From: Mesorhizobium sp. ORS 3324
Lineage (GTDB): Bacteria > Pseudomonadota > Alphaproteobacteria > Rhizobiales > Rhizobiaceae
Assembly: GCA_000824825.2 (NCBI GenBank)
Contig: LM655194.1
Span: 50,939 to 114,938, forward strand
Length of the DNA: 64,000 nt
Direction: 5' to 3'
The notes under the pieces were generated by a model. The model did not search any database and was not told the origin of the DNA. It worked only from the letters and a program-made list of their open reading frames with translations. Both the position numbers and the translations under genes were made by a program. This document shows, piece by piece, positions 13,605 to 17,736 of this stretch. Position 1 is the first letter of the stretch. Every line of letters starts with the position of its first letter.

Positions 13605-14186
13605 CTAATAAAGCGGCTCCTCGAACAGCGTCTTGTCGCCGTCCATCAGCGCCTTGATCTGAGGCGTCCCATTGGCCGAGAGCGCAAGCTTGATGCCGAA
13701 TGGCCGCGCGCGCATATCGGTTTGGATCGCCATGCCCTCGCCTTCCGGCACATAGAAGCGGTCGATCCCATATTCAGGCGCGATCGTCGCTTCCGGATCA
13801 CGAAGCCCCCAGCCCTCGGCGACATGGCCGGCAATGTCTGCCTCATCCGCGCCTGCCGGTACCGGCGCCTGGCCGAACCACGCCGCCGTCGGCAGCCAGT
13901 AGTTGTCGGCGCCCTTTTTGAGCCGGACCACGATCGAGGTGTCGTCGCTGGAGAACTTGCCTTGCGGGATGTTGGCGATCAGCTTCACCGGGATCCGCGA
14001 TATGCTGTTGTTGACCGAAATATAGTCGCCGCGCAGGAGATCGCGCGGATCGACGGGCTGGACCTTCAGCAAAACCTCCTTGCCGTTGCGCAGGATCGCA
14101 GCGCGCCCGGCGATGATCCAGCCGAGGAAGCCGATCTGGACAAGCGCCAGCACCAGCGCCGAGACGATCAGTCTTTTGCCGCTCAT
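13605..14186 (-). CDS. GDYXXLXY domain-containing membrane-anchored protein
   Basis: The 193-residue protein has an N-terminal membrane anchor (residues 5-27) followed by a soluble domain. The signature is 'VDPRDLLRGDYISVNNSIS', and the C-terminus holds a family-typical 'EYGIDRFYVPEGEG'. The start overlaps the stop of the DUF2157 gene (ATGA, 14183-14186), a widespread pair in proteobacteria. The anchored domain probably faces the periplasm. Function is unknown. Confidence 0.85.
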   Translation of the reverse strand: MSGKRLIVSALVLALVQIGFLGWIIAGRAAILRNGKEVLLKVQPVDPRDLLRGDYISVNNSISRIPVKLIANIPQGKFSSDDTSIVVRLKKGADNYWLPTAAWFGQAPVPAGADEADIAGHVAEGWGLRDPEATIAPEYGIDRFYVPEGEGMAIQTDMRARPFGIKLALSANGTPQIKALMDGDKTLFEEPLY

Positions 14187-15298
14187 GCCGCAGCTCCTCC
14201 GGCGGACGCTCTCATGCGCTTTTCAATACGGATGATGACCAGCGCCAGGATGCCGAGCAGCACGGCAGCGGCAAGGAAGAAGCCGGCCGTATCGAGCATC
14301 GACTGCAAGGTGACGCTGTAGATGATGGCAAGCTCGAAGGCGAATCCGGCATAGGCCAGCCAGCGCAGCCCGCGGCTCTCTCGCCCCGCCAGCATGATCG
14401 CCGCGACGATGCCGGCCAATGCGACGATCGAGGCGACGGCAAAGCCGCTGTTGTAGGTGCTTTGATCCGCCAGCTCGAACTGGATGATCGCCAAGCCCGT
14501 CAGGAAGCCGAGCAGCGCGTGCAACGGCAGCCGGCCGCCGAGCTGCAGGACCCTGTCGACCGGCCCGGCCGCAAAGACGCCGGCGGCGAACAGCGCGGCC
14601 GAGCCCGCCACCACGGGAACAGCGACCCGCAGCGTGTTGTGGTCGAGAGCCAGAAGGACAAGATAGAAGATCAGCGAAAGGACGATGAAATGGCGGGCCG
14701 GCCGGCTGCGCGTCCAGAACGAGGTCGCGAACAGAACGATCGCCATGGCAACGAAGAAATGCGGAATTCCGGCGTGCCAGTAGTAACCGAACCCTTTCAT
14801 GAACAACCAGCCGTCGGCGATGCCGACCGCCGCCACTGTGAGCGGACTGGAACGCAGCGCGACGGCCGCCAGCGCCGTGCCGGCGCCCCAGGTCACCAGC
14901 GCCGAAGCCTCGTCGCCCGACAGGTGATACATCTGGCCGATCAGCGCGATCGATCCGGCGAAGGCCGCGGCGGCGACGATCCATAGCGCCTCGCCGATCG
15001 CGGCATGGTCGCGTGTCTTCAAAACAGCCCCGCCGACATAGCCGCCGAGGATGACGGCAAACAGCGCCGCCACGCGCGCCAGCCGCGGAATGACCTCCCA
15101 GTTGGCGGCGACGAAGATCAGTATCGCGGCGCCAAACAGAAGCGCAGCCATCATCGCCAGGATCGAGCCGAAGCTCAGTGACGCTCGTTCATTGGCGGCC
15201 ACATCGCGCGTCAATGCTTCGGCGGTCGCCGCATCGATCAGGCCAGCACCCCGCCAGCGGGCGATATCCGCCCTTACCCTCGCCGTATAGCCCGCCAT
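14183..15298 (-). CDS. DUF2157 domain-containing polytopic membrane protein
   Basis: A 371-residue protein. A short cytoplasmic N-terminal segment ('ADIARWRGAGLIDAATAEAL') defines DUF2157, and about ten hydrophobic segments follow, including 'ILAMMAALLFGAAILIFVAANW' and 'GQMYHLSGDE' between helices. GGGGGAAGC precedes the ATG. It is translationally coupled to the GDYXXLXY gene, and the two probably act together in the inner membrane. No biochemical role is established. Confidence 0.88.
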   Translation of the reverse strand: MAGYTARVRADIARWRGAGLIDAATAEALTRDVAANERASLSFGSILAMMAALLFGAAILIFVAANWEVIPRLARVAALFAVILGGYVGGAVLKTRDHAAIGEALWIVAAAAFAGSIALIGQMYHLSGDEASALVTWGAGTALAAVALRSSPLTVAAVGIADGWLFMKGFGYYWHAGIPHFFVAMAIVLFATSFWTRSRPARHFIVLSLIFYLVLLALDHNTLRVAVPVVAGSAALFAAGVFAAGPVDRVLQLGGRLPLHALLGFLTGLAIIQFELADQSTYNSGFAVASIVALAGIVAAIMLAGRESRGLRWLAYAGFAFELAIIYSVTLQSMLDTAGFFLAAAVLLGILALVIIRIEKRMRASAGGAAA

Positions 15299-15533
15299 GC
15301 GCTTCCCCCGAGCCTGGTCATTTTTTTAGCCGCGGGGCCCAAACTATTGACGCAGCGGCATTTTCCGTTTCGGTCTTCTTTGTGTCGCAAGCGTGAATGG
15401 CCGTTAATGTTGCATTGCACAATTTGCATTGCTGCCATGCGCCAATGGCACTTTTAAACCGATATAACCCCACCTATTTTCTGTTCGTACACAAACGGAA
15501 ATGATCCGAACTAAAGACGAAACGAGCACTACC

Positions 15534-15674
15534 ATGAACCTGATCCGTAACTACCGCAACTGGCGCCGCTACCGGGAAACCGTTTCCGAGCTGAGCCGCC
15601 TGTCGAACCGTGAACTGACCGACCTCGGCATCAGCCGCAGCGACATTCACTACGTCGCCCGCAAGGCGGTCTAA
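15534..15674 (+). CDS. DUF1127 small arginine-rich protein, copy A
   Basis: A 46-residue basic protein, starting MNLIRNYRNWRRYRETVSEL and carrying the DUF1127 core 'LSRLSNRELTDLGISRSDI'. It is a near duplicate of the next gene. In Rhodobacter sphaeroides a DUF1127 protein (CcaF1) encoded directly upstream of anti-SD hairpin sRNAs binds RNA and affects sRNA stability. The same arrangement here makes a similar role likely by analogy. The ribosome-binding site is poor (AAGACGAAACG). The 235 bp upstream contain an AT-rich 'TTTTAAACCGATATAAC' stretch near 15452-15468 that may be the promoter. Confidence 0.9.
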   Translation: MNLIRNYRNWRRYRETVSELSRLSNRELTDLGISRSDIHYVARKAV

Positions 15675-15724
15675 TCCGCTTCGGACCGCGAATGGTCCGA
15701 ACCAGTTTTTGAAAGAGTAAGACA

Positions 15725-15865
15725 ATGAACCTGATCCGCAGCTACCGTAACTGGCGCGTTTATCGCGAGACGGTTTCCGAGCTCGGTCGGCTTTCGAACC
15801 GTCAGCTCCATGATCTCGGCATCGTTCGCGACGAGATCAAGATGATCGCCCGCAAGGCGGTTTGA
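15725..15865 (+). CDS. DUF1127 small arginine-rich protein, copy B
   Basis: A 46-residue paralogue of the preceding gene: MNLIRSYRNWRVYRETVSEL, then 'GRLSNRQLHDLGIVRDEI' and the same 'ARKAV' end. It differs most in the C-terminal helix (KM versus YV). GAAAGAG precedes the ATG. It ends 3 bases before the first anti-SD hairpin unit, so gene and sRNAs are probably cotranscribed and processed apart. Confidence 0.9.
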   Translation: MNLIRSYRNWRVYRETVSELGRLSNRQLHDLGIVRDEIKMIARKAV

Positions 15866-15868
15866 TAG

Positions 15869-15990
15869 GGAATTTCGCCAGGGTCGACCTCCTCCCCGAC
15901 CCTGACGGATACGGTCAACCTTTACCTCCTCCCAAAGGTTGACCACCGAAACGGCGCCCGCCGGACCTCCTCCCCCGGCGGGCGTTGTTC
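15869..15990 (+). ncRNA. Anti-Shine-Dalgarno (CCUCCUCCC-loop) small RNA, unit 1
   Basis: Three consecutive perfect hairpins each present the identical loop ACCTCCTCCC: stems 15879-15886/15897-15904 (8 bp), 15913-15923/15934-15944 (11 bp) and 15955-15964/15975-15984 (10 bp, very GC-rich). The unit begins with GGAATTTCG and its third hairpin is followed by TTGTT, a weak terminator tail. The loop complements ribosome-binding sites (GGGAGGAGG), the defining trait of the 'cuckoo'/CcsR sRNA family of alphaproteobacteria, which occurs with DUF1127 genes as here. Family naming rests on loop, architecture and context. Processing ends are inferred. Confidence 0.85.
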
Positions 15991-16018
15991 AGAAGCGAAC
16001 GAAGTTCGTCTTCCAGGG

Positions 16019-16044
16019 CTTTCGCCCCCTCTAAAAAGCGAAAG
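16019..16044 (+). other. Spacer stem-loop between the two sRNA units
   Basis: The CTTTCGC (16019-16025) / GCGAAAG (16038-16044) arms enclose CCCCCTCTAAAAA. It is preceded by a tight CGAAC-GAA-GTTCG hairpin at 15996-16008. It separates the two anti-SD units and could serve as a processing site or weak terminator. Confidence 0.4.
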
Positions 16045-16170
16045 GAATTTCGTCAAAGCCGACCTCCTCCCCGGCGATGACGAATAGGGTCGATCTTCAC
16101 CTCCTCCCGGAGATCGACCAACAAAACGACACCCGCCGGACCTCCTCCCCCGGCGGGTGTTGTTGTTTTC
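16044..16170 (+). ncRNA. Anti-Shine-Dalgarno (CCUCCUCCC-loop) small RNA, unit 2
   Basis: A second copy exactly 175 bp after unit 1, with loops in the same register (16062, 16099 and 16140). Stem 1 is CGTC..GCCG / CGGC..GACG (16051-16082, internal bulges), stem 2 is 16088-16098/16109-16119, and stem 3 is 16129-16139/16150-16160. Stem 3 is followed by TGTTGTTTTC and acts as an intrinsic terminator. Compared with unit 1 the loops are invariant, while stem 2 shows three two-sided changes (T-A to C-G, C-G to T-A, A-T to G-C) and stem 3 one, so pairing has been preserved by selection. Confidence 0.88.
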
Positions 16171-16253
16171 AAAGCAATTCCAGGAAAAGTGTGCGGCGGT
16201 TGGGCTCGGCGACTTCGCCGTAGCTTTCCATCCGGAATTGCGTAAAACAAATA
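16171..16253. repeat. AATTGC-type dispersed palindromic repeat, copy 3
   Basis: AAAGCAATTCCAGGAAAAGT through CCGGAATTGCGTAAAACAAA, in the orientation opposite to the copies at 1-20 and 1529-1580. An internal GGCGACTTCGCC hairpin makes this copy longer. It lies between the sRNA array and trmFO and may contain the trmFO promoter end. Confidence 0.6.
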
Positions 16254-16326
16254 GCAAGGCAGGCTTCCCGCATCACGTCCGCACGGGCAATTGCATTCGC
16301 CGCGCCAAGCGATTATTTCGGCGCTC

Positions 16327-17736
16327 ATGAGCAACAATCCCGTACACGTCATCGGCGGCGGCCTCGCCGGCTCCGAGGCCGCATGGCAGATCGCGCAAGC
16401 CGGCGTTCCGGTCGTGCTGCATGAGATGCGCCCGGTGCGCGGTACCGACGCGCACAAGACCGACGGGCTGGCCGAGCTCGTCTGCTCCAACTCGTTCCGC
16501 TCGGACGATGCCGAGACCAACGCGGTCGGCCTGCTGCATGCCGAAATGCGGCTTGCCGGCTCGCTGATCATGAGCGCCGGCGACGCGCATCAGGTCCCGG
16601 CCGGCGGAGCGCTGGCCGTCGATCGCGATGGCTTTTCCGATGCGGTAACAAGGAAGATCGAGGCGCATCCGCTGATCACCGTCCAGCGCGAGGAAGTGCC
16701 AGGATTGCCCCCGGCGGAGTGGGACCAGGCAATCATCGCCACCGGGCCGCTGACGGCGCCTTCTCTGGCGCAGTCCATCGCCGAAGCCACAGGCGCGGAT
16801 GCGCTCGCCTTCTTCGACGCCATCGCGCCGATCGTACATTTCGACACGATCGACATGAACACCTGCTGGTACCAGTCGCGCTACGACAAGGTCGGCCCAG
16901 GCGGCACCGGCAAGGACTACATAAACTGCCCGATGGACAAGGAGCAGTATCTCGCCTTCGTGGCGGCGCTGCTGGAGGGCCAAAAAACCGAGTTCAAGCA
17001 GTGGGAAGGCACGCCCTATTTCGACGGCTGCTTGCCGATCGAGGTGATGGCCGAGCGCGGCGTCGAGACGCTGCGCTACGGGCCGATGAAGCCGATGGGC
17101 CTTACCAACGTCCACAATCCGTCGGTCAAGGCCTATGCGGTGGTGCAGCTTCGCCAGGACAATGCGCTGGGCACGCTCTACAACATGGTCGGTTTCCAGA
17201 CCAAGCTGAAGCATGCCGAGCAGGTGCGCATCTTCCGCACCATTCCGGGGCTGGAAAACGCCGAGTTCGCCCGCCTCGGCGGCCTGCACCGCAACACCTA
17301 TATCAACTCGCCGACGCTGCTCGATCCTTCGCTGCAGCTCAAATCGCGGCCGGGCCTGCGCTTTGCCGGCCAGATCACCGGCTGCGAGGGCTATGTCGAA
17401 AGCGCCGCGATCGGCCTGCTCGCAGGCCGCTTCGCCGCAGCCGAGCGGCTCGGCCAGCCAGCTTCGCTGCCGCCGCCGACGACCGCCTTCGGCGCGCTGC
17501 TCAACCACATCACCGGCGGCCATATCGTGTCGGACGACGAGCCCGGAAAACGCTCCTTCCAGCCGATGAACGTCAATTTCGGCCTATTTCCGCCGGTGGA
17601 GGCGCCAAAGAATGAAGGCAAACGCCTGCGCGGCAAGGACAAGACCGTCGCCAAGCGCCGGGCGATCACGGCAAGAGCGCTGGCCGATTGCCGCGCATGG
17701 TTGGGCCTGCCGGCGCAGGCTGAGGCCGCGGAATAA
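16327..17736 (+). CDS. trmFO: FADH2-dependent tRNA (uracil-54-C5)-methyltransferase
   Basis: Folate- and FAD-dependent enzyme making m5U54 (ribothymidine) in the tRNA T-loop, using methylenetetrahydrofolate instead of SAM. The 469-residue protein opens with the dinucleotide-binding '[18 protein letters not shown]' and the TrmFO-specific '[14 protein letters not shown]' and 'CSNSFRSDD'. It continues with '[11 protein letters not shown]' and '[12 protein letters not shown]' and ends with the conserved 'HITGGH' and 'MNVNFGLFP'. The ATG at 16327 begins family homology; a frame extending to 16291 does not. It is monocistronic. Confidence 0.96.

Follow-up and report, generated by a model that had tools for sequence, protein, structure and literature searches.

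Paired DUF1127 genes and tandem ar14/cuckoo units in a probable operon behind a candidate LsrB/VtlR box in Mesorhizobium

In a 64-kb stretch of Mesorhizobium DNA (the window, as the whole analysed stretch is called here), two DUF1127 genes and two ar14/cuckoo RNA units, whose six hairpins share one anti-Shine-Dalgarno (anti-SD) loop, probably form a single operon. We consider it probable that this locus produces an LsrB-activated DUF1127 mRNA of a CIN1-type operon, the 3' part of which is processed into anti-SD sRNAs. Such an arrangement suggests that DUF1127 small proteins and anti-SD sRNAs, which have been described separately as LsrB/VtlR targets, are united in one operon, and would open a simple genetic route to asking whether the DUF1127 proteins act on the RNAs made together with them.

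Both DUF1127 genes encode 46 amino acids and lie on the forward strand at 15534..15674 and 15725..15865 (stop codons included), matching PF06568 with 62.4 and 55.2 bits. A DUF2157 membrane protein gene precedes them on the reverse strand (14183-15298), and the array is followed on the forward strand by what we take to be a trmFO-like gene starting near 16327. The hairpins span 15874-16164 on the forward strand, each with the loop ACCTCCTCCC. In unit 1 (whole match 15870..15990), folding and unit alignment place hairpin 1 at 15874..15909 (loop 15887-15896), hairpin 2 at 15913..15944 (loop 15924-15933) and hairpin 3, whose tail is not U-rich, at 15950..15989 (loop 15965-15974). A spacer that folds into small hairpins and carries no LsrB/VtlR box (15991..16043) leads to unit 2 (16044..16165), where hairpin 1 folds at 16049..16084 (loop 16062-16071), hairpin 2 at 16088..16119 (loop 16099-16108) and hairpin 3 with its U-rich tail at 16125..16172 (loop 16140-16149, 3' arm ending at 16164). 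The earlier note had described six same-loop hairpins in two units with a 175-bp period, and exact positions, repeat and fold agree with that description. CCTCCTCCC occurs exactly at 15888, 15925, 15966, 16063, 16100 and 16141 of the forward strand and is confined to the array in a search of both strands of the window (six copies against 0.58 expected; none of 100 shuffles reached six), and the direct repeat measures 121 nt with a spacing of 175 bp and 83% identity. Folding of the 313-nt array yields -148.4 kcal/mol (z -9.6, equalled by none of 100 shuffles), with all six loops left unpaired as a 10-nt ACCUCCUCCC; the DUF1127 coding part folds no better than its shuffles (z -0.75). The loop sequence fits what we take to be the anti-SD of the organism; a pattern search for the 16S 3' end gave no match.

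Both units are full-length members of Rfam family ar14 (RF02344, model positions 1-123), with 93.1 and 92.5 bits against a cut-off of 58.8. Each unit has three hairpins with an unpaired CCUCCUCCC, the three loops by which ar14/cuckoo RNAs are defined (PMC10746234, PMC3927594), and the conserved loop, variable stems and number of adjacent hairpins agree with the definition of cuckoo RNAs as 2-4 neighbouring hairpins per RNA with conserved loop and variable stems (PMC4504443, PMC3927594). The two short PF06568 genes directly 5' of the RNA units correspond to the CIN1 locus, in which a DUF1127 gene is followed by cuckoo-type RNAs, as in ccaF1-CcsR1-4 (PMC10253847). The RF02344 matches and PF06568 genes therefore bear out the kinship with cuckoo/CcsR RNAs beside DUF1127 genes that had been proposed; the accompanying suggestion of an undescribed variant mostly fails, as the units belong to an established family, the locus type already bears the name CIN1, and the layout is widespread in the genus (see below).

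Differences from the described systems are nevertheless present. NfeR1/Smr14C2 (Sinorhizobium meliloti, ar14) shares the three CCUCCUCCC hairpins, the model match and an LsrB-type motif upstream, but descriptions present it as a lone sRNA transcribed from a promoter of its own, whereas the two units here come after a DUF1127 pair, seemingly under one promoter. The cuckoo/CIN1 loci SmelA075 and SmelA099 (Reinkensmeier and co-workers) resemble the array in their variable module number, identical loop, variable stems and short DUF1127 proteins, and differ from it in that here the DUF1127 genes are paired and followed by two or three complete three-hairpin units. In Rhodobacter sphaeroides, ccaF1-CcsR1-4 likewise combines a DUF1127 gene, tandem homologous sRNAs, a terminator and one front promoter, but has a single DUF1127 gene of 71 aa, four sRNAs and an RpoHI/RpoHII promoter instead of LsrB. 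Neither a paired-DUF1127 operon with tandem ar14 units nor an LsrB box before one was found described in the accessible text of openly licensed PMC papers, and the cuckoo-family tables of 2015 may already include Mesorhizobium examples. An identification of the array with MH_s15 of M. huakuii is unsupported, this RNA being described, in the text available, with poly A/U in loop and tail (PMC5596092).

The ar14 family was detected in all 61 genomes of the genus searched (60 above cut-off) and in 117 of 121 genomes of the family (111 above cut-off); the window's genome has seven matches, five above cut-off, two of which are the array. The 30 top-scoring matches, from 30 different genomes out of the 61 searched, were fetched, and the layout DUF1127-DUF1127-(unit)x2-3 was present in every one of these best 30 loci as well as in the window. 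Among the matches listed for the other 30 genus genomes, 27 genomes have at least two ar14 matches within a few hundred bases of one contig, and G006, G023 and G050 have no neighbouring ones. The window, these 30 covariance-model loci and six loop-pattern loci made up the 37 genus rows compared below (36 distinct, L136 being identical to L036). As the last six, named Mesorhizobium loci, were kept because they carried a DUF1127 array, the unselected figure for the layout is 30/30. Eight of the 14 Mesorhizobium-titled loci among the matches listed were set aside (L056, L057, L060, L071, L092, L110, L119, L145); they are other ar14 copies, single units whose fetched stretch contains no DUF1127 gene. 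Further loci among the matches listed have units before DUF1127, DUF1127 with one unit, or units alone.

Changes in the stems point to selection on the RNA structure. Comparison of the two units of the window shows, in stem 2, three base pairs with both partners replaced and a single wobble and, in stem 3, one such double replacement together with a G.T to A.T change; the double replacements and the wobble are as previously claimed. Stem 1 is imperfect, with one mismatch in unit 1 and two in unit 2, which had gone unmentioned. Over 50 aligned units, our own pick from 176 distinct units (79 from the genus, 97 others), both sides changed in 35 of 38 pairs. Paired cells reached 85.7%, compared with 72.2% in shuffles (0/500 reaching the true value), a test inflated by relatedness, and at most 51.3% when the structure was slid, a comparison that favours the true version in that the imposed structure is that of the window's unit 1, itself one alignment row; neither control is clean alone. 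The firmest part of the test is the number of double-change cells, 257 against at most 67 in the slid versions. Taken with the unit-to-unit changes, this covariation upholds the view that the structure is under selection. Loop invariance is by construction in most rows from outside the genus, which were excised by exact loops; in the genus rows the first loop was an exact anchor and up to one mismatch was accepted in the others. With that tolerance, no loop of the first units deviates and their flanks vary. The proposal that loops are invariant and stems covary holds in the genus for all loops except that of the last-unit hairpin 3, which was altered in 6 of 37 rows (L009, L012, L022, L025, L037, L074) beside a nearly fixed stem, a pattern that fits a hairpin maintained chiefly as a terminator.

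The tails behind the last stems follow the same division. Within 12 nt past the stem, internal units have on average 4.6 T (range 3-8, n=50) and last units 8.2 (range 6-10, n=34), so transcription likely ends at the last unit, and the U-rich tails likewise make it likely that the last hairpin doubles as the array terminator, as had been supposed. Unit 2 hairpin 3 was not listed on the forward strand by a terminator-like scan with a loop limit of 8 (the loop here is 10). That all hairpins serve mainly as a 3'-UTR stabiliser or terminator of the DUF1127 mRNA, without a role in trans, would be consistent with the strong stems and with this terminal hairpin, yet for the array as a whole it appears highly improbable: the other genus loops are constant in a search that accepted one mismatch and their stems covary, the opposite of what a pure stabiliser would need, and the loops of NfeR1 work in trans (PMC10746234).

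The same rows record the history of the array. On the unrooted tree, from which the supports of the unit clades were read (midpoint rooting gave 0.0 for first and 0.681 for last units), first units form one clade (37/37 tips, support 0.971), all 34 last units fall within a clade of 35 (support 0.978) that also includes unit 2 of L020, and middle units mostly form a third clade (11/13, support 0.995); DUF1127 genes 1 and 2 form separate clades of 32 tips each (support 1.0). We reject the idea that the two units arose by recent duplication, given this separation of first from last units and of the two DUF1127 genes. Because first and last units are separate lineages, the array is, to judge from these trees, ancestral and comprised two or more units by the time of the ancestor, which would make tandem ar14 units a position-specific genus trait. 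Three complete units are present in 13 of the 37 rows and two in 21; L022, L025 and L074 have one complete unit and a second with a shortened third loop. In the inter-unit spacer of L036, the hairpin AAGCGAACGAAGTTCGTCTTC is itself in tandem, in about three copies.

Upstream of the operon, at 15416..15438 of the forward strand, motif matching revealed a fused box TGCA-N6-GCAT-N3-TG-N3-T (TGCACAATTTGCATTGCTGCCAT), the only one in the window against 0.04 expected and a candidate LsrB/VtlR operator. Its two motifs overlap on GCAT: TGCA-N6-GCAT is the LsrB-type site upstream of NfeR1 (PMC10746234) and GCAT-N3-TG-N3-T the VtlR box (PMC7486931), and the window matches the Brucella motif of PMC12595884 at 12 of 15 positions. 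The fused box was found 5' of DUF1127-1 in 37/37 genus rows (36 distinct), with its TGCA at -109 to -120 from the ATG and a 26-nt core identical in 32 of them, and neither the LsrB nor the VtlR motif was found in any of the 51 inter-unit stretches of the genus, which together argue for one operon with one promoter. A putative promoter (15451..15479, forward strand; -35 CTTTTA, 17 nt, -10 CTATTT), with conserved CTTTTAAA and CCTAT in its footprint, would place the transcription start near 15486, about 63 nt after the box, similar to the NfeR1 box at -72 to -60; a generic sigma-70 scan of 15300-16350 gave no promoter-like site. The NtrC motif reported for NfeR1, TGC-N11-GCA, is absent in the window and overlaps the LsrB-type box in other rows.

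It has also to be considered that each ar14 unit is an independent sRNA with its own promoter and that the proximity of DUF1127 is incidental. Many DUF1127-less ar14 units elsewhere do have a VtlR-like box, the start of which mostly lies 55-67 nt ahead of a reference point, itself 18 nt 5' of loop 1, and in other genera such a box accompanies the second tandem units of L161, L164, L167 and L172 and both full units of L159. For the array we regard this explanation as improbable, given that the inter-unit stretches of the genus are free of both motifs, that the conserved promoter-like region sits upstream of DUF1127-1, and that the distance from the DUF1127-2 stop to loop 1 is 19-24 nt in nearly all genus rows (37 in L029). 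Among the matches listed, Rhizobiales-type rows from outside the genus carry either motif in 14 of 25 cases with DUF1127 directly in front and in 63 of 101 without it (62 of 100 when L040, a slice artefact, is left out), figures that count rows, some loci giving two and L054 none; rows from outside Alphaproteobacteria carry neither (0/10), and random 260-nt pieces match the single motifs in 3.1% and 3.6% of cases, roughly 7% for either.

The fused box points to LsrB as the candidate regulator, and LsrB binding at the box is inferred from motif resemblance. In the window's genome trxB is followed by a LysR gene, an arrangement that has been reported for lsrB of Rhizobiales (PMC11975290); NCBIfam gave no model above cut-off for its product, which by gene context is the putative LsrB. 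LsrB activates NfeR1 in Sinorhizobium (PMC10746234), and VtlR activates DUF1127 genes and AbcR2 in Brucella (PMC12595884) as well as small-protein genes (PMC7486931). DUF1127 and ar14, both target classes of LsrB/VtlR, appear to share one operon here; the known small targets (Brucella DUF1127 genes, atu1667, AbcR2/AbcR1) are similar in the DUF1127 gene with a GCAT-N3-TG-N3-T box, but are, in the sources available, single genes or sRNAs. The array may be switched on by a redox-responsive regulator. Of two ar15/AbcR genes, one has GCAT-N3-TG-N3-T at -61 and the other no box. The 6.58-Mb genome contains two strict fused boxes (none in the reversed control) and nine relaxed ones (one in the control), and one of the three relaxed sites examined precedes a third DUF1127 gene. 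Of the 12 DUF1127 profile matches in the genome, nine lack a box in the 350 nt upstream. The second strict box (in L210, region 1272-1625) lies beside a minus-strand DUF1127-like frame of 54 aa (22.3 bits, below the cut-off of 23.3) and is flanked on its other side by a plus-strand stretch that ends in the terminator-like GGCCGGCTTTTTTT; no Rfam family exceeded its cut-off in this region. In L199, around 1385-1632, a single loop-less DUF1127 gene has TGCA-N6-GCAT and CCTATTT upstream, as in the operon of the window.

In the working of the locus that we favour, the LysR-type activator LsrB (VtlR) would bind the fused box and a single transcript would start at about 15486 and end in the U-rich terminator near 16172, with read-through past unit 1 into unit 2 expected because unit-1 hairpin 3 has no U-rich tail. 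The 3' part would be cut, probably by RNase E, into three-hairpin sRNAs, by analogy with ccaF1 and CcsR1-4, which are made as one transcript and processed by RNase E (PMC10253847, PMC8625941). The open ACCUCCUCCC loops, six per transcript given two units, would pair with Shine-Dalgarno regions of mRNAs and block their translation, as for NfeR1, the three loops of which redundantly silence ntrB (PMC10746234). GGAGG is absent ahead of both DUF1127 starts, and self-silencing of the DUF1127 mRNA by the array is therefore improbable. Perfect 9-nt complements near a start codon (GGGAGGAGG-N3-9-ATG) number nine in the genome and four in the reversed control; they include an ABC ATPase, GutM and a LacI-type gene, and the excess is too weak for target claims. 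In S. meliloti only one of six ar14 copies was reliably detected (PMC7143759), hence the copy here could be silent. A terminator-like hairpin between the DUF1127 genes (15680..15701, forward strand, from the terminator-like scan) could uncouple the parts of the operon; it was found in all 32 genus stretches folded, out of 37 rows, and its preservation throughout, with TTTT in only 21 of the 32, suggests that it may instead be a processing or stability element. A DUF1127 attenuation of S. meliloti (PMC12218461) was set aside as a parallel, as it concerns a uORF mechanism.

The part played by the DUF1127 proteins as RNA partners is contested. The earlier note had cast them as RNA-binding partners, which is in line with RNA binding by CcaF1 (PMC10253847, PMC12501420) but not with the Agrobacterium and E. 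coli proteins, described as acting via PhoR, or with Salmonella YjiS, for which RNA binding was not seen according to the accessible text of the same source (PMC12501420). In the operon they might act in sRNA maturation or by a PhoR route. RNA binding by CcaF1 would also be consistent with CU-rich loops that bind protein, either DUF1127 or an RNA chaperone, and not mRNA, the array being then a protein sponge, and in a Loktanella MAG a single DUF1127 gene is followed by as many as 14 loops. We consider a sponge very improbable, in that the loops fit the anti-SD, ar14 pairing with mRNA has been demonstrated (PMC10746234) and for many ar14 copies the fetched locus contains no DUF1127 gene; silencing of mRNAs by the loops is the reading retained.

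A wider and rather unlikely possibility is that DUF1127 genes with anti-SD arrays act as a translation brake, tunable by dosage, within a LysR-type stress regulon that Alphaproteobacteria have in common, with 6-14 SD-binding loops per transcript. If so, one LysR-controlled transcript would provide both the small protein and the loops, and the gain of units would tune array length. Among the matches listed, TGCA-N6-GCAT lies upstream of Rhodobacterales-type arrays in 19 of 21 rows; LsrB is reported from Rhizobiales only and said to be absent in Rhodobacterales in the accessible text of PMC11975290, so that these boxes would imply an older regulator. For L113 and L042, the two cases searched, the divergent neighbour is an Mrp/NUBPL-type ATPase and not a LysR gene. 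Two copies of the palindrome, 39-40 bp apart, occur in 11 of the Rhodobacterales-type rows among the matches listed (L113, L047, L090, L064, L093, L140, L130, L041, L078, L042, L133). Arrays of this type consist, among the matches listed, of one DUF1127 gene and up to 14 hairpins, the longest being that of L133 (MAG, Loktanella sp.), with 14 anti-SD loops.
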